Positions 20,396-36,068 of a stretch of 44,122 bases of DNA are shown here, one piece after another; the stretch's first letter is position 1, and every line of letters starts with the position of its first letter. The stretch is from the NCBI GenBank assembly GCA_016926735.1, contig JAFGOA010000031.1, positions 1 to 44,122 of the forward strand, in the 5' to 3' direction. Position numbers and translations under genes: made by a program. Below the pieces are notes generated by a model, which saw nothing but the letters and a program-made list of their open reading frames with translations, was not told the DNA's origin and did not search any database. The stretch is from Promethearchaeota archaeon. GTDB lineage: Archaea; Asgardarchaeota; Lokiarchaeia; Sigyniarchaeales; SOKP01.

Positions 20396-21742
20396 TTATA
20401 ATATAAAATCATTTCTCATTTTCATTTTTTCATGTATATCAGGAAAAAGATTCTCCAATCTTTTAATATCTTTAAATTGTATAGATTTGAATTTACATAT
20501 CTCTCCATATAATTTTCCACTCTTTTTTAATGTTCTTTTAAAAGTATTATAATCCACATGTATAAGACCAAAACGAGGATTAAATCCATAAGTCCATTCA
20601 AAATTATCTAATAAAGACCAATAAATATATCCTTTTACATTAATCTTATTCTGTATTGCTCTATACACTTCTAATAAGTGTGAAATAATATAGTATTGAC
20701 GCCATTCATCATTTTCTGTAGCAATCCCATTTTCAGTGATAATAAGAGGTTTATCCGTAAACTTTGATGCTTTTTCTAAAATATTAAATATTCCTGAGGG
20801 AAATGGTTGCCAACCAAGATCGGTATAAAGATACTCATTTTTTATATTTGGGAGACTTGGGGACTCACCTTTAGGAAAGTCCTCTGATGAGAAATAAATG
20901 CGATGATAATAATTTAATCCCAGAAAATCAAAAGAATCTTTTAAATTTGGTACTTCCTCTTTTTCTGAACGATAAGGTAATTTTCCTGTTTTTATTGAAT
21001 TAAAAAAAGAGTTATTCATAAATTCCTCTCTTTGAGAGGCCTTTTCATGATCTTCAATTTGATTTGATAATACTTCTATATCTTCAATAACTTTTACGAT
21101 TCCAATAAATTTGATATTATAATTGTTTTTTAGAATATTATATGCCGAAGCATGCATTCTTAATAAATTATTAACAACTTTTTGGGTAATTTGAGAGTCT
21201 TTTTTAGAAGGAGGCATTTTCCCTAAACCATATCCAAGTAAAGCTAAAATTAATGGTTCATTGATTGTACACCAATAGTCTATTTTATCCTTGAACTCTT
21301 TTGCTAATAAATCGACGAATTTTTCAAAATAAATAAGATTCTTTTTATTTTCTAATCCTCCTTTCTTTGAGAACCATAATGGTAAGGTGAAATGAAAGAT
21401 TGTAAGCATTATTTTAATATTATTTCTATTAAGCCAATCAAACATTTTATGATAATGTTTAATAGCTTCAAAATCGATTTCGCCTTCTTTGGGAATTATT
21501 CTACTCCATTCAACAGACATTCTGTATATATCACAGTTCATTTTTTTTATTAGACTAAAATCTTCTTCATATAAATTCCAATGATTTGTTGCGAATCCTG
21601 CTTTTTGATTGTTTTGTATTTTTCCTGGAATTTGTTCAAATTCCCACCAATCAGAATTGTCAATATTACCTTCTATTTGATATGAAGAAGTTGCAGCTCC
21701 AAACAAAAAACTATCTGGAAATCGTATTCCATTTTTCACCAT
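20396..21742 (-). CDS. bglA: Glycoside hydrolase family 1 (beta-glycosidase)
   Basis: A 448-residue GH1 enzyme (from ATG 21742) hydrolysing beta-glucosides or beta-galactosides. The acid/base Glu162 is in TINEPLIL and the nucleophile Glu337 in LIITENGIA. Sugar-binding signatures include FLFGAATSSYQIEGN at the N-terminus, FHFTLPLWF, and YWSLLDNFEWTYGF near the C-terminus. The longer frame would start with TTG and add eight residues ahead of a normal GH1 N-terminus; I prefer the ATG. No signal peptide is present, so it acts in the cytosol on imported oligosaccharides or glycosides. No sugar transporter is adjacent. Confidence 0.94.
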   Translation of the reverse strand: MVKNGIRFPDSFLFGAATSSYQIEGNIDNSDWWEFEQIPGKIQNNQKAGFATNHWNLYEEDFSLIKKMNCDIYRMSVEWSRIIPKEGEIDFEAIKHYHKMFDWLNRNNIKIMLTIFHFTLPLWFSKKGGLENKKNLIYFEKFVDLLAKEFKDKIDYWCTINEPLILALLGYGLGKMPPSKKDSQITQKVVNNLLRMHASAYNILKNNYNIKFIGIVKVIEDIEVLSNQIEDHEKASQREEFMNNSFFNSIKTGKLPYRSEKEEVPNLKDSFDFLGLNYYHRIYFSSEDFPKGESPSLPNIKNEYLYTDLGWQPFPSGIFNILEKASKFTDKPLIITENGIATENDEWRQYYIISHLLEVYRAIQNKINVKGYIYWSLLDNFEWTYGFNPRFGLIHVDYNTFKRTLKKSGKLYGEICKFKSIQFKDIKRLENLFPDIHEKMKMRNDFIL

Positions 21743-21869
21743 ATTTAAATGAAAAGAGGTTTTCAAAATAAATTTTTATAAATCGATAATATATTTTTTT
21801 GAATTTTTCAACTATAATAATAAGTTGGGAGAGAACCAAATGATATTAAAAATTTCAGAAAAATTTTGA

Positions 21870-23102
21870 TTAAGTAATCTTTGATCCACATACTGGACAA
21901 ATTATTGAATCTTTTACAGTTGCACCACAAATAGAGCATAATGTTACAGATTTTCTTGTTTGTGGTGGCCTTAAACTAGTAATAGAAACATTTTCACCAT
22001 TACTTAGAGCTTTATTGGTATCTTTTTTTGATGAATTTGCATTTATTGTAACTTCTTTACCAAAAAATCCCCCTACTTTAACTTTTTTTTGTACAACCTC
22101 AGGTACATTTTTTCCTGAATCTATATTTGACATTGCTTGATTGGATTCTTCTGAAATTAATTCTCCTTCTATTAAATTCTCACCTGATTCTGTTTTTTCT
22201 TCTAAAACCATCTCAACAAAATCTTTATCCAATTTCAAAATTGCACTGCACTTTGGACAACGAAAAATATATGCTAATCCTATATTATTAACTATTGAAT
22301 ATTCAGCTGCACAGCAACTATGGTAAGGACTATTACAATTATAACATTTATGAACCTCATCACTATATGCTTCACATATAGGACATAATTCTTGTTCACA
22401 TAATATACATTCTTTTTTATCTTCTGGAGAAAGAGAGATAAGATCAGTTGCTAATTTATCATAAAAAGTATGCTCATCTTCTAAAATTTTTTTAGATTCA
22501 GCTTTTATTAGATTAAATTCACTCTTACTACGTACCAATGAATTTAAATAGTTTGAAAATTGTTTACTTTCATTGCAATAAAGTGTGCCTCCAAATGTTT
22601 CACTTGTAAGAACTTTTAACTTTACATCATCTTCATAGAATTTATCTTCTCCAATACGAATTATATCGATAAATGTATGAAAATTTTTAGCTTTTAATAC
22701 TAAATTATAAAGAGCAGTGTGATATTCTTCTGATTGTGTGCTTGGTGTATCAGATATAACAATTATTCTATAGATCTTGGGTTCAATTCTACTTTTTTTA
22801 AAAATATGAGCTAATGTTTCATAAAGTCCATTTTCAAAATAGCTTATACCTTCTTCTCTTTCTTCCCAAATATCTTCAATTTTTTCTAAAATAAAAGAGG
22901 CTATTTGATCATAAATACTAAATACTTCTTTTTGTTTTTTAAAGATAACAAATCCATATGTAAAATTGCCCACTTTATTATTCGCATCCATAAATGATTT
23001 AAGACTTTTCAATAAACCTTTTTTTTTAAGGAACTCAGTTGATATATCTAAGTAGAAAATAATTTCCTTTGAATCTAAATTTTCATCATTACTTATTTGC
23101 AT
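21870..23102 (-). CDS. vWA plus C4HC3 RING/PHD-like zinc-finger protein, paralog 1
   Basis: A 410-residue protein. Residues 13 to about 195 form a von Willebrand A fold: strand EIIFYLDIS (Asp19), RIIVISDTPS (112-121) and VKLKVLTSETFGGTLYCN. The MIDAS is degenerate: DxSxE replaces DxSxS. A zinc finger follows with spacing C240-x2-C-x9-C253-x2-C-x4-H261-x2-C-x17-C282-x2-C, preceded by an extra CILC pair (232, 235). A linker contains the peptide VGGFFGKE (343-350). A final zinc ribbon uses Cys389, 392, 402 and 405. The vWA plus RING order and the FGGT strand recall p44/Ssl1 of TFIIH; a ubiquitin-ligase-like role is another option. The adjacent upstream gene is a paralog. Function is inferred from architecture only. 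Confidence 0.75.
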   Translation of the reverse strand: MQISNDENLDSKEIIFYLDISTEFLKKKGLLKSLKSFMDANNKVGNFTYGFVIFKKQKEVFSIYDQIASFILEKIEDIWEEREEGISYFENGLYETLAHIFKKSRIEPKIYRIIVISDTPSTQSEEYHTALYNLVLKAKNFHTFIDIIRIGEDKFYEDDVKLKVLTSETFGGTLYCNESKQFSNYLNSLVRSKSEFNLIKAESKKILEDEHTFYDKLATDLISLSPEDKKECILCEQELCPICEAYSDEVHKCYNCNSPYHSCCAAEYSIVNNIGLAYIFRCPKCSAILKLDKDFVEMVLEEKTESGENLIEGELISEESNQAMSNIDSGKNVPEVVQKKVKVGGFFGKEVTINANSSKKDTNKALSNGENVSITSLRPPQTRKSVTLCSICGATVKDSIICPVCGSKIT

Positions 23103-23335
23103 ATTATATTTTTACCTTTGATTTGATATCGGATATAATTTAGTGAAAAAAGCATTCTGTTTTATTAATGAAAAATTAATAAAATTTTATTTAGGAACAA
23201 TAAAAAAGAATTCTTATTTATTTTTATTCTAATTTCTATCAAAGTTCATATTAGTCCTATTACATTAAAAAAAAAATTTCAAGATTACTCAAAAAAGACT
23301 ATGAATGACTCACAATGAATTAATACTAATAATGA

Positions 23336-23359
23336 TAAATCATTTTGTTCAATGATTTA
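23336..23359. repeat. Inverted repeat between the two vWA genes
   Basis: TAAATCATT and AATGATTTA (9 bp, perfect) flank a 6-base loop, TTGTTC, in the 315-bp gap 23103-23417 between the two vWA genes. A smaller AGCG/CGCT hairpin follows at about 23369-23382. The gap is otherwise AT-rich with no coding-like ORF. The structure may end or protect the upstream transcript, or be an operator of the downstream gene about 235 bp away. Confidence 0.3.
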
Positions 23360-23417
23360 CCATATAAAAAGCGATTATACGCTCATAGCAAAATAATACT
23401 TCTATACATTGAATAGG

Positions 23418-24614
23418 TCATAATGTAAATTTCTCATAGGTCACTTTTCCTTCCTTTTTGCGTACCTTATACAGTTTTCCAAAGTATCCTCCAACTCTTA
23501 TTATTTTTACACCCTCCTCTTCAATATTTTCCATCTCAGATTTAGATTCTTCTATCATTAGATTATTTTGTATTTCTATATTTATATCTTGATCTAATAT
23601 ATTTGGTTCATTTTTAGGAAAAATGAGTTGGTCTTTTCTATTTATGTCTGATCTTGGTTCAGGTTTTTTCTTTAGATATAAATCAATAAATTTATTTTCT
23701 TTTTTTTCTTTTCCTTCTTTATCTATAATCTCTCTATCAAGTTTTAATAATATACCACATTTAGGGCATCTAAAAATATATGGTATTCCAACATTATATT
23801 CCACTGAATATTCTAATATACAACAATTATGAAATGGAGACCTGCATTCTTCACAAATTTGAGGGATATCATAAACATCTGAACAAATAGGACAAATTTC
23901 TTTATTGCATATATTACAGACTAAATCTTCTTTACTTTCAGGTTCTATCAAATTTTTTGATAAATTTCTGTAAAATTTTAGATCATCTTGAGTAATGTCA
24001 AAATGTTCTGGTCTATCTGAATAAAGATTTACTATTTCCTTTACTTTCACAAGTTGGTTAAATACAAGTGTAAGTTCTTTCTTGTTATGGGTGTAAAAAA
24101 TACCTCCTTTTGTGTCTGATGCAAGAATATTCAATTTTACATCATCTTTAAAAAACCTATTACCTTCCCCAACAACACGAATAATATCTATAAATGTTGG
24201 AAAAAATTTTACTTTTGATATCAATTCAAACAAAGCATCTTGATAATCTTCAGAAAGTTCACTTGGTGTGTCAGTGAGAACTATAATTCTATTTGATTTT
24301 GATTTCTTTCTAATACTATCGGCAATATATGATAATATATAAAATAATCCCTTTTCAAAATTAGATTTATCTAAAGATCTATTTTTCCAATTTAAATCAA
24401 ATGTTTGAGAAAATTCTGTAATATCACTTTGTTCACTTAAGAATATTGGAAAATCATCATTACTAAAAAAAAGGAGCCCAAATTTACCCTTTAAATTAAG
24501 TTTTTCCTTTTTCTCTATATAATCTTTTATTAGATTATAAAGAGTCTTCTTTTTTATATACTCTTTTGTTAAATCTAAATAAAAAAAAACATCTTCATAT
24601 TTTTCTGCTGACAA
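23418..24614 (-). CDS. vWA plus C4HC3 RING/PHD-like zinc-finger protein, paralog 2
   Basis: A 398-residue paralog of the downstream protein. The vWA fold (about 8-195) shows DVFFYLDLTKE, NRIIVLTDTPSELSEDY and VKLNILASDTKGGIFYTH; the MIDAS has DxTxE in place of DxSxS. The zinc finger repeats the other paralog's spacing exactly: C241-x2-C-x9-C254-x2-C-x4-H262-x2-C-x17-C283-x2-C, with an extra CNIC pair before it. After an acidic linker the peptide RVGGYFGKLYK (373-383) matches VGGFFGKE of paralog 1, but the terminal zinc ribbon of paralog 1 is missing. The start is TTG at 24614; no near ATG exists. It is divergent from the HTH/coiled-coil gene, 283 bp away. Confidence 0.72.
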   Translation of the reverse strand: MSAEKYEDVFFYLDLTKEYIKKKTLYNLIKDYIEKKEKLNLKGKFGLLFFSNDDFPIFLSEQSDITEFSQTFDLNWKNRSLDKSNFEKGLFYILSYIADSIRKKSKSNRIIVLTDTPSELSEDYQDALFELISKVKFFPTFIDIIRVVGEGNRFFKDDVKLNILASDTKGGIFYTHNKKELTLVFNQLVKVKEIVNLYSDRPEHFDITQDDLKFYRNLSKNLIEPESKEDLVCNICNKEICPICSDVYDIPQICEECRSPFHNCCILEYSVEYNVGIPYIFRCPKCGILLKLDREIIDKEGKEKKENKFIDLYLKKKPEPRSDINRKDQLIFPKNEPNILDQDINIEIQNNLMIEESKSEMENIEEEGVKIIRVGGYFGKLYKVRKKEGKVTYEKFTL

Positions 24615-24897
24615 TTTTTTAAAATATCTCCTATTTCTCTAAATAAACATAATTGATTTTTCTTAAATTTCTTTCTATATAAAAAATCCAGATATTTTAT
24701 ATTAATTTATGAATAAGGTGAAAATTGAGTTAAATTATATTGGAATTTTTGAATAACAAATCTTTTTATAGACATACGTTTAAGGATAAAACATACTTTA
24801 AAATATATAAGATCATAAATTTAATATTATAAGCTAATTATTTAATAAAATTGTAAGTTATAATAATTAGAACCAATAAAAACTAAAATGAACTTAT
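24615..24897. promoter_or_regulatory. Divergent promoter region of the vWA/coiled-coil pair
   Basis: This 283-bp gap separates two divergent genes. A TATA-like TTTAAAATATATAAG lies near 24798-24812, about 85 bp before the plus-strand gene. It is preceded by a patch with slightly more G+C (GACATACGTTTAAGGA). No strong palindrome is visible. Co-regulation of both directions is possible from this shared region. Confidence 0.3.
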
Positions 24898-26871
24898 ATG
24901 GAAGAAATACTTAATAAATTAGAATTATCAGAAGAATCAATAAAACTGTATCTAGGAACTTTTGGGAAAGACATTTTATCATTTCAAGAACTAAAGTTAA
25001 TTATTCCAGAAATTATTGAAAAAAATCTAATTAAAAGATTAAACGAACTTCTCAATGCGGGATTATTAATTCAAGTCAATACCGATAAAGATGTATCACA
25101 AACAGATTTCTTTGCTATTCCTCCTTTTGATCCAATTCTAAACTACTTTAAAAACATAAAAGTAAGTTTTTCAGATATCAGTAGAGCTCTTAATGATTTA
25201 ATTGATTCTACAACAAAAGATATTTTTAAGAATAATAAAATTGAGCTTGAAACGGTTTATAAAGACTTCAAAGATATAGAAAAAGATTTTGTTGAGGATA
25301 GTCTTTTACAAAAAAAGGATGCTGAAGATATTTCAAAACAAATGGATGTAATTAGAAAAATAGGTGAAATTATCTCAAACATTCAAAATATAATAAAAGA
25401 TATCTCCCAAACAGAATTTTCTAATCTTATAAAAAGATTTGTAACTCTTAAAGAAGAGTTAAAATCAAAAATAGAAAGTCTTGAAATCAGGAAAAAAAAG
25501 GAAGAACTATTATTCCAAATACTTGATGATACCTTTAAAGATAGACTCGGAAATACAGTGAAAGATTTCATAAATACATTGAATTCTATGATAAAGCAGG
25601 AATTTAATAAAGTACCATTTAACGAAATTATTGAAAATGTTATCCATTCTCGTGATGACTTTAAAATCATGCTCTTAAATTTACTGAATAGTTTTGAATT
25701 GAATATAAATAAGATTTCAGATTTAATAAATGATAAAAAAACGAATCTAAATCAAAGTTTTGATGAACTTAAAAATCAAATAATAAATAAAATAAATTCT
25801 ATTGTTCAGAAAACAATAAAAAAAATAGAAAACCTAAATGATCCCATTATAACCTTGATATCCGAATCCAAATTAAAAACAACTTCTATAAAAACAGATA
25901 TCATTAAAAAATCTCAAGAAATTAGAAGCCTTACGAAGATTAAACAATATTTATTATCATCTATTAAAGATTCCAAAGAAGAATTATTATTAATCATTCC
26001 CAAAATAGAGGATTATATAGAGATAGGAATGTTTAAAAAATTACCTAAAACATTGAAAATCAAAATTGCTTCCTCTGATCCTCATGTTAATAGTAAAGTA
26101 AAACAATTTAAAGAACTTAATAATCTTGAATTTCGAAAATATGACAAACAGAATTTTATAGGAATAAAATCTGATAATAATTTAATTGGATTTGGACTAA
26201 TAATAGAAAATAAAGATCCTATGGATAATTTTATTGGTATTTCATCTAATAATAGTATTCTTATTGATTTATTGAAACCTTCCCTATATAAGATTTGGTC
26301 AGATGCTGAACATGGATCAAGTAGAATATTCGTTGAAGAAAAAAAATATAATTTTCCAAAAGTTGAAAATATGATGATTTCTCAAGAAAAAGAAATAAAC
26401 AGTATTGGGAAAAATAGAATACATATACCTAAATCTACTGAACCTCCAAAAAATATACCCCCACCTTCTGATATTTCAGAAATGTCTGTGGAACCTAAAA
26501 ATTTTAAATTAGAACAAGAACCGATAAATACTTCTTCTTTTCAAAAACAAAACTCTGAATTAAATATAAATGAATCTGTAAAATTTATCTCATTAGTTAA
26601 TCCAAAAGCAGGAGATAATTCTGGAATGATAATAAATGAAGCATTTAATACTTTGATTCAAAATATAAATATTTATTCTGGAGAAACCTTATCTCAAGAA
26701 TTAAATAGAATTACTGAATTAATATTAGAGAAAAGAGGATTTTCAGTAACTTTACATAACATTCGCACAACTATAAATGGTTATAAGAATCAAAAAATTC
26801 TTTTAACAATTGAGCAAAAGAACAAGATTTTTAACATAATTGAGGAATGGAAGAAAAGATTATTCACTTAG
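24898..26871 (+). CDS. TrmB-like HTH protein with long coiled coil
   Basis: A 657-residue protein. Residues 1-70 look like a TrmB-type winged HTH (LSEESIKLYLGTFGKDILSF, then NLIKRLNELLNAGLLIQV). Residues about 75-340 are almost continuous heptad-like coiled coil. Residues about 350-475 resemble the TrmB C-terminal sensor region (LLLIIPKIEDYIEIGMFKKL, LKIKIASSDPH, LIGFGLIIENKDP). A proline-rich linker (about 507-525) and a separate C-terminal alpha-helical domain of about 80 residues follow (ETLSQELNRITELILEKRGF). I know no protein with the whole layout. Divergence from the vWA-RING pair suggests a shared process. It could be a DNA-binding architectural factor or an adaptor whose HTH serves protein contacts. 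Confidence 0.65.
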   Translation: MEEILNKLELSEESIKLYLGTFGKDILSFQELKLIIPEIIEKNLIKRLNELLNAGLLIQVNTDKDVSQTDFFAIPPFDPILNYFKNIKVSFSDISRALNDLIDSTTKDIFKNNKIELETVYKDFKDIEKDFVEDSLLQKKDAEDISKQMDVIRKIGEIISNIQNIIKDISQTEFSNLIKRFVTLKEELKSKIESLEIRKKKEELLFQILDDTFKDRLGNTVKDFINTLNSMIKQEFNKVPFNEIIENVIHSRDDFKIMLLNLLNSFELNINKISDLINDKKTNLNQSFDELKNQIINKINSIVQKTIKKIENLNDPIITLISESKLKTTSIKTDIIKKSQEIRSLTKIKQYLLSSIKDSKEELLLIIPKIEDYIEIGMFKKLPKTLKIKIASSDPHVNSKVKQFKELNNLEFRKYDKQNFIGIKSDNNLIGFGLIIENKDPMDNFIGISSNNSILIDLLKPSLYKIWSDAEHGSSRIFVEEKKYNFPKVENMMISQEKEINSIGKNRIHIPKSTEPPKNIPPPSDISEMSVEPKNFKLEQEPINTSSFQKQNSELNINESVKFISLVNPKAGDNSGMIINEAFNTLIQNINIYSGETLSQELNRITELILEKRGFSVTLHNIRTTINGYKNQKILLTIEQKNKIFNIIEEWKKRLFT

Positions 26872-26912: not shown

Positions 26913-27701
26913 TTAGCTGGATTTTTTATTTATATGTGATCTTACTATTCCAACAATAATATAACCAACTTCAATAATTACAAAACCAAAAAAGATGGAA
27001 CTTACAATTATAGCTAAAATAATTGTTGGATTTAATATCCCAATAATTCCAAAGATAGGACATAATGGTGCAAGCACAATAAAATAGATATAGATTTTCT
27101 TATCCTTTTCTCCAAATTTTATGCTTGTAGTGATATTTGACCATCCAAGAAAAATCATTATTATGGGAAGTAAAATATATGAAAAGAAAGGAAAAGCTAT
27201 ATCATAGGCTTGATATCCTCCTCCTCCTTCAAAAATAGCAAAAAAATAATTAGCATAAAATAAATTAATCATTAATAACGCACTCATTGGTGTAGGAACT
27301 CCAGTATATCCTGGAACATCAGAAATATTGAATCGAGCTAATCTTAAAATAGCACATAATGCAAATATAATACAAGCAATCAACAAAAAATAATCATAAG
27401 GTTCTAATGTATCTACAACTCGTCTAAATCCTTGAAACATAAGAATTGCAGGTGCAATTCCAAAAGTTAAAGAGTCATTTAATGAATCTAATTGTTTTCC
27501 TATTTCATTTATCGTTCCTGTCTTCCGAGCTATAAATCCATCTAATAAATCTGTTCCAATTGTAAAAGCAAGTAAGAAAAATCCTAAAGAAACATAACCA
27601 CGTCCACCAAGAGTTACTAAAAGAACAGCTATTAATCCAAGAGTTGTTCCTGTTAGTGTAATATAATCTTTTAATTTTAATAGATTAACAATTTTTGACA
27701 T
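26913..27701 (-). CDS. pssA: Archaetidylserine/phosphatidylserine synthase (CDP-alcohol phosphatidyltransferase)
   Basis: A 262-residue integral membrane enzyme. The CDP-alcohol phosphotransferase signature is complete: D54-G-x2-A-R59-x8-G68-x3-D72-x3-D76, in LLDGFIARKTGTINEIG followed by KQLDSLNDS. The SLNDSLTFGIAPA and GVPTPMSALL segments place it in the serine-transferring branch, which in archaea attaches L-serine to CDP-archaeol. About eight hydrophobic segments are visible. It starts with ATG at 27701. No decarboxylase gene (archaetidylserine decarboxylase) is adjacent. It is convergent with the HTH/coiled-coil gene and divergent from the gelsolin-domain gene. Confidence 0.9.
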   Translation of the reverse strand: MSKIVNLLKLKDYITLTGTTLGLIAVLLVTLGGRGYVSLGFFLLAFTIGTDLLDGFIARKTGTINEIGKQLDSLNDSLTFGIAPAILMFQGFRRVVDTLEPYDYFLLIACIIFALCAILRLARFNISDVPGYTGVPTPMSALLMINLFYANYFFAIFEGGGGYQAYDIAFPFFSYILLPIIMIFLGWSNITTSIKFGEKDKKIYIYFIVLAPLCPIFGIIGILNPTIILAIIVSSIFFGFVIIEVGYIIVGIVRSHINKKSS

Positions 27702-27876
27702 TATATATTTATTAAATAAACCAATAATTAAAGATTTCTCCCATCTCTATTCTAATAAAAAATTGTCTTTTTTCTAATTCAAAATTAAAATCTTTGAGTT
27801 ACCAAAATTTTTATTTACATACTTTTATATTTTTTTAAAGAAGATTTTTATATTTAAAATAGTTATTGTGCCAAAA

Positions 27877-29085
27877 ATGACTGAATATGACTATTTCATG
27901 GTTTATGAGCTTTTAGAGACCGGTGAAGAAGAGAGAATTGAGGCAGATCAAAATAATCTACAAGAAATTCTTCATCCAGAACAAGTTTTTGTAATTGTTA
28001 AAGAGGATGTAAGAAGAATATTTATATGGAAAGGAGCAAAATCTCCTGTTAGAAAACGATTCATTAGTTCAAGAGTAGCAAGTAAATTGCAAGATGAACT
28101 TATGAAACAAGCTGCTTTTCATCGCTGTAAAATTGTCTCTGTAGATCAAGGTGATGAACCTGAAGAATTCCTTAAGGTCTTCAGATTGGAAACTATGGAA
28201 GTTAAAGAAAAATTAGAAGATATGAGATATGTTCGAAATATCGAGAAAGATCTCGATGTTATAAAAGGAAAAGTTGTTGATGATGTTCCTATTAAAAAGC
28301 AAGTAGATGAAGAGTATTATTCTCCAGCATTAGAAGAGATGAAACGTAAAGGAATAGAAATAACATCAAAACCAATTCAACAAGATACAACCACAACTCA
28401 ATCAATGAAAATAAAAACATATCAACCTCCTCCTCATAAATTTGAAAAACCAAATCAAGATGAAATAATCAAAAAGATTTTGTCAAATAATGTTCCAAAT
28501 CAATATAAAAGACAAAATTTAATAATTGGAGAATCTTTGTTTGGTGCTGTTTCCAAAATAACAAATGTATTTGGAGAAGATATCGAAGAAACAGAATGGG
28601 AAAAAGTTGAAAAACTTCCCAAAGGAATTTTTAGTCTTGATAATTATTTATGTAGAATTTATTTCAACACACAAAAGGGAACTGTTGATGCTTTAGAAAT
28701 TTTAAAACCAGATAATGGAAAACCCGAGATGAAAAAAACGTCTTTTAAGATATCTGATGATGATATTTCATTAGAAAAGAAAATACTAAAATTAAAAACA
28801 CCTGAAAATTCATATCGAGAGAATTTAATAATTGGTTATAATTTATATGGTGCTATTTCAAAAAAAATTGAAGTTTTTGGAGAAGAAAGAGAAGAAGAAG
28901 AATGGAACTCTTTAAAAAAGGTTCCAAAAGAAATAGTTACATTGTCATCTCATTTATTCCGAATTTATTTTAATGAAAAGGAAGATAATGTTGATGCTAT
29001 TGAAATTTTGAAAAAAGAAGGGAATAGCGCTAATAAAAGCAGTACCAAAAGAAATTTACCAAAAATTCCCAGTAACAATGATTAG
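27877..29085 (+). CDS. Gelsolin-domain protein with duplicated C-terminal module
   Basis: A 402-residue protein (from ATG 27877; a GTG at 27868 would add three residues). Residues about 5-105 form a gelsolin/ADF-like domain: EDVRRIFIWKGAKSPVRKRF, then ISSRVASKLQDELM, and KIVSVDQGDEPEEFLKVF. This is the pattern of actin-severing gelsolin repeats, an Asgard hallmark. A charged linker (about 110-190) leads to two tandem copies of an 85-residue module (about 194-279 and 297-382). Their cores align: NLIIGESLFGAVSKITNVFG with NLIIGYNLYGAISKKIEVFG, and CRIYFNTQKGTVDALEILK with FRIYFNEKEDNVDAIEILK. I do not recognise the module. An actin-regulating role is inferred from the first domain only. Confidence 0.8.
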   Translation: MTEYDYFMVYELLETGEEERIEADQNNLQEILHPEQVFVIVKEDVRRIFIWKGAKSPVRKRFISSRVASKLQDELMKQAAFHRCKIVSVDQGDEPEEFLKVFRLETMEVKEKLEDMRYVRNIEKDLDVIKGKVVDDVPIKKQVDEEYYSPALEEMKRKGIEITSKPIQQDTTTTQSMKIKTYQPPPHKFEKPNQDEIIKKILSNNVPNQYKRQNLIIGESLFGAVSKITNVFGEDIEETEWEKVEKLPKGIFSLDNYLCRIYFNTQKGTVDALEILKPDNGKPEMKKTSFKISDDDISLEKKILKLKTPENSYRENLIIGYNLYGAISKKIEVFGEEREEEEWNSLKKVPKEIVTLSSHLFRIYFNEKEDNVDAIEILKKEGNSANKSSTKRNLPKIPSNND

Positions 29086-35525: not shown

Positions 35526-36068
35526 GTGGGTATTAATAGCGTGGAAAAAAGAAAGTACTTATTTAAAATTGTAACTATTGGAGAAGGAGGATCAGGAAAA
35601 ACATCTTTACTACGTCGATATGTTGAAGGTAAGTTTGATGAATCAACTGTTTTGACTGTTGGTGTAGATTTCTACATAAAAGAACTCGACAGTAATTCAG
35701 AAGCAGAATGTACTTTACAATTATGGGATTTTAGTGGTCAATTAAGATTTCGACATATGTTAGGAAATTATGTTATGGGAGCTCGAGCTGCTCTTCTCCT
35801 AGTTGATCTTACTCATATGCCTGAAATGGAAGAATTGATAGAATGGGTAAATATAGTTAGATCTCATGATCCCGTCTTACCTATTCTTTTGGTAGGAGCA
35901 AAAGCAGATCTAAAAGACTTAATTGCTGTTGAAGATGAATTTATGTTGAATGTTGTGAATACCTTTAATATGGCGGGATATATAAAAACTTCTGCAAAAA
36001 CGGGACATAATGTAAATAAAGCTTTTAAGCTAATCGCTAAAACCTTAATGAATCGATGCAAATATTAA
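35526..36068 (+). CDS. Ras-like small GTPase
   Basis: A 180-residue small GTPase of the Ras superfamily, close in layout to Rab/Arf-like Asgard proteins. The P-loop is GEGGSGKT (19-26), switch I has TVGVDF (Thr44), switch II is WDFSGQ (67-72), G4 is GAKAD (124-128) and G5 is TSAK (155-158). The G4 motif normally reads NKxD; here alanine replaces Asn/Thr, which weakens a key guanine contact and may change nucleotide preference. There is no C-terminal prenylation cysteine box, only NRCKY. The frame begins with GTG at 35526; a second GTG at 35541 is an alternative. A gap of 91 bp separates it from the MBL-fold gene on the same strand. Confidence 0.93.
   Translation: MGINSVEKRKYLFKIVTIGEGGSGKTSLLRRYVEGKFDESTVLTVGVDFYIKELDSNSEAECTLQLWDFSGQLRFRHMLGNYVMGARAALLLVDLTHMPEMEELIEWVNIVRSHDPVLPILLVGAKADLKDLIAVEDEFMLNVVNTFNMAGYIKTSAKTGHNVNKAFKLIAKTLMNRCKY

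Follow-up and report, generated by a model that had tools for sequence, protein, structure and literature searches.

Introduction

Several described proteins join a von Willebrand factor A (vWA) domain to other small domains or motifs. In p44/Ssl1 of TFIIH (PF04056 and PF07975) the vWA domain is followed by two zinc modules, p34/Tfb4 (PF03850) has a C-terminal zinc finger and lacks a RING, and Rpn10/PSMD4 carries ubiquitin-interacting motif (UIM) helices, not RING fingers. Within TFIIH, the p34 vWA domain contacts the p44 RING, and Ssl1 has been suggested to act as an E3 (PMC4094531). In this study, we describe a locus in a stretch of 44,122 nucleotides (the window; contig 228 of a Lokiarchaeota metagenome-assembled genome (MAG) of 3.88 Mb, with 99% completeness and 4.8% contamination), which encodes two tandem vWA-RING proteins, A and B, and, divergently, a TrmB-type winged-helix/coiled-coil protein, TrmB-CC.

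We propose that A and B are a pair of RING-bearing scaffold proteins with a dead metal ion-dependent adhesion site (MIDAS), belonging to a membrane/cytoskeleton module with TrmB-CC as regulator and/or partner, a functional reading to which we give a probability of about 0.42. No description of this family was found in the literature searched, an incomplete library.

Results

Anatomy and relatives of the A/B pair

The sequence-only reading of the window had recognized three open reading frames (ORFs) here and taken A and B for tandem paralogs. The three ORFs are present, and A and B are 35% identical (E=3e-67) in an alignment over nearly their whole length, which makes them paralogs. The features of the pair are:

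21870..23102, minus strand, vWA-RING protein B, 410 amino acids (aa), member of an orthologous clade of 19
22533..23075, minus strand, vWA domain of B, aa 10-190, MIDAS degenerate (AlphaFold, Foldseek, residue table)
22248..22409, minus strand, RING/PHD-like cross-brace finger of B, predicted strand-strand-helix (alignment)
22056..22088, minus strand, GG[FY]FG motif in the disordered tail of B (alignment)
21888..21938, minus strand, C-terminal zinc ribbon of B, aa 389-405, aligning with the second RING of the D paralogs
23418..24614, minus strand, vWA-RING protein A, 398 aa
23757..23918, minus strand, RING/PHD-like finger of A, aa 233-286

Compared directly with the PDB and Pfam, A, B and the helix-turn-helix (HTH) protein gave nothing significant except for the weakly matching C-terminal zinc ribbon of B. 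Pfam revealed no UIM in the window proteins, and an alignment of one of them to a spike protein was weak and judged to be due to chance. As no single sequence gave a convincing match, relatives were needed for assignment, and 76 members of the vWA-RING family, from genomes that are nearly all MAGs and with simple ORFs as gene models, entered an alignment, a tree and a per-clade residue table. Below, A and B also denote the clades of the window paralogs, f2 is a sister family, g6 a genus, and D1 and D2 are distant paralogs. In the tree, clades A (16 members) and B (19) are sister groups from one duplication, f2 and g6 have a single copy each, and the further clades are a C clade, a small f4 clade, D1 and D2. 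Members of D are vWA-RING-RING proteins of about 390-425 aa, with two RING-like fingers. Our sample comprised 148 genomes of the phylum and 14 control genomes, the latter being the coverage of archaea outside the phylum; among the Asgard genomes in it the family was found only in the class Lokiarchaeia, to which it is apparently restricted.

As had been read from the sequence, the MIDAS of both window proteins is degenerate: D19 and D118 are retained and DxSxS is lost, the latter being intact in D1 and D2. Across the 76 sequences, with few exceptions, the finger is a C4HC3 cross-brace with the ligands C232, C235, C253, C256, H261, C264, C282 and C285, spaced C-x2-C-x17-C-x2-C-x4-H-x2-C-x17-C-x2-C; A has all eight ligands, as have almost all members of B, together with a conserved C-x-[ILFV]-C. 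The spacing proposed earlier, C-x2-C-x9-C-x2-C-x4-H-x2-C-x17-C-x2-C, is literally present, but it starts at the lineage-specific pair C240/C243 and not at the family-wide C232/C235, with which the invariant RING begins eight residues before. This extra pair is consistent only in A, B and the single copies of g6, occurs partly in f2, and is mostly missing from the distant clades. The order of vWA domain and finger had been correctly seen, but the C-terminal zinc ribbon (389-405) and the tail motif GG[FY]FG had been missed. The tail motif is nearly invariant in A, B and the g6 copies, its GG and FG being kept by 18/19 members of clade B and 16/16 of clade A; a zinc ribbon is present in 14/16 clade-A members and missing from protein A of the window and of its genus.

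Likeness to p44/Ssl1, p34/Tfb4, Rpn10 and FANCL

The p44-like character of the vWA-RING family is well supported, through the D paralogs and the domain layout, which do not prove descent; the p44 resemblance of the window pair is likewise supported, mainly through its paralogs. Members of D exceed the Pfam cut-off for PF04056 (Ssl1) in 35 of the 148 phylum genomes, all of this class, with up to 49.7 bits, and the four D paralogs tested reached 31.9-47.6 bits against a cut-off of 27. At E<=1e-6, PF04056 found nothing but the D branch in the phylum and control genomes, and it was silent in all 14 controls, 12 of which have ordinary vWA domains. A profile of D matched Rpn10 (3e-13) and p44 (3e-12) in the PDB, followed by bacterial BatB-type vWAs (2e-8 to 4e-6), and a profile of the whole family matched Rpn10 (1.8e-10) and then Tfb4, MERIT40 and p44 (6e-5 to 5e-4). 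Rpn10 is, therefore, the best sequence-profile match of the family in the PDB, but its match is confined to the vWA domain. For p34/Tfb4, which shares the vWA domain and a C-terminal zinc finger and matches with a profile E of 6e-5, the D paralogs stay below the Pfam cut-off (24.7 vs 27 bits), and the window pair does not match.

Structural comparison points in the same direction as the likeness to p44/Ssl1 that had been suggested from the layout. In the AlphaFold model of B, the vWA domain mostly has a predicted local distance difference test (pLDDT) score of 75-93 and the finger of 64-85 (our AlphaFold models were built from multiple sequence alignments of 14 and 7 sequences). A Foldseek search with this model against the PDB placed p44/Ssl1 or p34/Tfb4 in all of the first 19 positions, p34 being at ranks 3 and 5. 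The alignments span 280-360 columns, zinc parts included, at a root-mean-square deviation (rmsd) of 12-21 Å; the best match, to p44, has E=1.7e-10 over 360 columns at 21 Å. For the vWA domain alone, the Foldseek TMt was 0.74 with p44, barely higher than with Rpn10 (0.70) and TEM8 (0.68).

With p44/Ssl1 the window pair shares the vWA domain followed by two zinc modules, a length of about 400 aa and a late vWA strand with G-G, but it fails PF04056, its MIDAS is degenerate, its finger order is C4HC3 first with only a zinc ribbon last, and no TFIIH partners lie nearby. PF07975, the C4C4 RING, had no match in the window proteins or in the four D paralogs tested, and over the p44 RING the alignment of the D profile is collinear and worth only about 3 bits or less. 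The C4HC3 fingers of FANCL, PHD and RING-CH have in common with the D paralogs the ligand order, C-x-I-C, a W and C-P-x-C, but the Pfam matches of the family finger are weak (best PHD 3e-6 and best FANCL_C 5e-4, with 20 members) and no further FANCL domain is present in vWA-RING members. The spacing of the finger is equally compatible with PHD and RING.

The TrmB-type coiled-coil protein

The third gene of the locus has the following parts:

24898..26871, plus strand, TrmB-type winged-helix/coiled-coil protein, 657 aa
24898..25122, plus strand, winged HTH, aa 1-75 (model, Foldseek; weak TrmB/HxlR Pfam matches)
25126..25911, plus strand, predicted coiled coil, aa 77-338 (model, low to moderate confidence)
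25912..26307, plus strand, TrmB-like (PLD-fold) domain, aa 339-470 (model, Foldseek)
26605..26868, plus strand, C-terminal four-helix domain, aa 570-657 (model)

A long coiled coil, a TrmB-like domain and a further C-terminal domain had all been anticipated; the AlphaFold model predicts the first and the last, with a disordered linker between the TrmB-like and four-helix domains, and Foldseek ranks TrmBL2 (1e-7) and TrmB (5e-5) first, the sequence signal being weak. TrmB-CC thus shares the N-terminal winged HTH and the PLD-fold domain with TrmB/TrmBL2, but has a coiled coil of ~260 residues between them and the extra four-helix domain. To our knowledge, TrmB regulators carry neither.

Genomes from the family of the window genome also encode paralogs of TrmB-CC, 500-1006 aa in length. 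Some of these (L165, L166, L167, L168 and L192) adjoin a conserved protein of 375-417 aa without a Pfam match (cluster c36), and an exported protein of very large size is often found alongside. Other Asgard classes have the four-helix domain as well, in small coiled-coil proteins, among them three of 171-211 aa that belong to no Pfam family (L184:5308-5919, L186:5438-5965 and L188:5594-6115). These gave a lead to an ESCRT subunit, which was abandoned, as no ESCRT Pfam match was obtained. At L190:5331-7195, a gelsolin-domain gene, a Roadblock protein fused to the C-terminal domain of TrmB-CC and a second Roadblock-like protein stand in a row.

A conserved neighbourhood

The comparison of neighbourhoods covers 20 loci, all from the family of the window genome, and adds three features to the locus:

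24615..24897, no strand, divergent intergenic region between vWA-A and TrmB-CC (gene comparison)
26913..27701, minus strand, CDP-alcohol phosphatidyltransferase, archaetidylserine-synthase-like, conserved neighbour in 20/20 loci
27868..29085, plus strand, gelsolin-domain protein, conserved neighbour in 16/20 loci (Gelsolin 19.6 bits, cut-off 21)

Gene order and strands (vWA-RING minus, TrmB-CC plus, transferase minus) are kept in all 20 loci, four of them with one or two inserted genes, and the trio arrangement is, therefore, under selection. The A/B-type vWA-RING gene and TrmB-CC are both present in 20 of the 24 family genomes, and neither in the other four, three of which are 61-74% complete. 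The expectation that the trio would stay together in other Asgard genomes thus holds within this family and not outside it; an Asgard-wide trio was discarded, and the epithet 'ancestral' is not supported, given this confinement and that of the vWA-RING proteins to one class among the Asgard genomes sampled. A LOR/scramblase-like gene, absent at this place in the window and its nearest relative, is found in 18/20 loci and the gelsolin-domain gene in 16, with contig ends accounting for some of the absences; all other neighbours are kept in 2-10 loci. In the trio loci, the LOR match lies over the Pfam cut-off and the gelsolin match just under it. Archaetidyl/phosphatidylserine synthases are the closest matches of the transferase, which scores under their cut-offs.

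The intergenic region between vWA-A and TrmB-CC measures 125-257 bp in most directly adjacent relatives, 551 in the same genus, and more than 2 kb where there are insertions. A shared operator in 24615-24897 was not definable from one close relative, and a bacterial promoter scan performed no better than chance.

Elsewhere in the vWA-RING family, the company is different. TrmB-CC is not among the neighbours of the single f2 copy, which has a Ras GTPase and an actin homolog next to it in four of the six loci (L101:10790-12828, L077, L078 and L102), and D2 adjoins a Rag/Arf-type GTPase in eight loci. The latter are L154 (280-1485 and 1746-2942; G000:C220), L080, L155, L158, L160, L162, L164 and L172; the GTPase has an apparent C-terminal Roadblock-like part and lies beside D2 or close by, mostly divergently. 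A Met-tRNA synthetase beside D1 is most likely plain synteny.

Discussion

In the model that we favour, A and B are a duplicated, MIDAS-dead branch of the vWA-RING family, the MIDAS-intact branch of which, D1/D2, resembles p44/Ssl1 and Rpn10. The two proteins may form a heteromeric cytosolic scaffold in which one paralog holds the zinc domain of its partner through its own vWA domain, by analogy with p34 and p44, and the RING and the tail motif might recruit partners, possibly a ubiquitin E2. The pair would serve a membrane/cytoskeleton module together with the gelsolin, LOR/scramblase-like and archaetidylserine-synthase-like products. TrmB-CC might act as a regulator of the divergent genes, as a partner that attaches to the A/B pair by its coiled coil, or in both ways. 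The gelsolin, LOR and lipid-synthase genes near the pair, and the GTPase and actin genes near its relatives, favour a role at membrane and cytoskeleton over one at DNA, and A and B probably act as hubs of protein interaction and not as DNA-repair machinery.

Several observations weigh against this proposal. Genes that lie together need not work together, and the neighbours lie on alternating strands, so that they do not form an operon. The putative DNA-binding HTH within the trio fits a role at DNA equally well. Neither A nor B has an Ssl1, vWA or RING Pfam match (Ssl1: none at E<=1), and the vWA fold by itself yields a Foldseek E of about 1e-7 with unrelated vWAs. Finally, the residue table shows Y/H in place of the E2-contact residue W268 in both A and B, and a loss of P283 in part of B (7/19).

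These last two changes also bear on the idea that the pair consists of active RING E3 ligases, in which the vWA domain would bind substrates and the RING a Lokiarchaeal E2, within a hetero-RING pair. The conserved ligands and C-x-[ILFV]-C agree with it, as do the full I-W-P E2-contact triad in the RING of D1/D2, the weak RING/PHD/FANCL matches of the family and the E2 genes of the window genome, at G000:C108 and C237. However, W268 is replaced, B often lacks the proline of C-P-x-C, no linchpin Arg/Lys directly follows the last Cys, the pair C240/C243 is not standard for a RING, and the spacing would suit a PHD just as well. Because of the two substitutions, E3 catalysis is doubtful as judged from the residues, and a scaffold or adaptor is favoured over an active ligase; we consider the ligase explanation unlikely. 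More modestly, TrmB-CC might be simply a divergent local regulator of the vWA-RING genes, or a TrmBL2-like chromatin protein, with the lipid and gelsolin genes as unrelated long-term neighbours. The divergent layout in every locus, the mostly short intergenic region and the TrmBL2/TrmB structural matches would be expected in that case; the coiled coil and the four-helix domain are atypical of TrmB regulators, however, and the latter is also seen in other Asgard proteins that lack an HTH, in one of them joined to Roadblock beside a gelsolin-domain gene. This makes the explanation quite unlikely in our opinion.

The sequence-only reading had named a DNA-repair/transcription module as one possibility, which our analysis does not support. 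The trio might be imagined as an archaeal TFIIH precursor or analogue acting in repair or transcription initiation, with A and B as p34/p44 and TrmB-CC providing the winged helix. What speaks for it is the Foldseek ranking of p44 and p34 over long alignments, the passage of the Ssl1 cut-off by D paralogs, and the vWA-zinc layout in two paralogous subunits, as in TFIIH. Yet no gene for XPB, XPD, p52 or p62, for repair or for another TFIIH-type protein was found beside the vWA-RING copies examined, so that a linkage to DNA-repair genes was rejected; Tfb2, the one subunit looked for across the window genome, gave no match in a search without a positive control; the four D members tested have no PF07975 match, the family is apparently restricted to one class, and the full-length superpositions have high rmsd values. 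We regard such a complex as very unlikely.

A wider version of the scaffold proposal holds that Lokiarchaeia have their own vWA-RING adaptors, from the stock of p44, p34 and Rpn10, which would couple ubiquitin signalling to a GTPase/actin/lipid membrane system, the trio with its gelsolin, LOR and archaetidylserine-synthase-like genes being one undescribed module of this kind; this is tentative and, as we see it, rather unlikely. If the scaffold proposal is right, p44/Ssl1-type vWA-RING proteins would be present in Asgard archaea and have diversified there without being part of any TFIIH, one branch would be tied to actin-regulator and membrane-lipid genes, and a syntenically defined set of proteins would be at hand for the connection between a ubiquitin-type scaffold and the cytoskeleton in relatives of eukaryotes.

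Other genes of the window

A GH1 glycosidase (20396-21766) lies directly downstream of vWA-B and is absent from that place in the closest relative (L083). Further along the window, a Ras-like GTPase (35526-36068, cluster c11) is 33-35% identical to the GTPase found beside the vWA-RING gene of f2.

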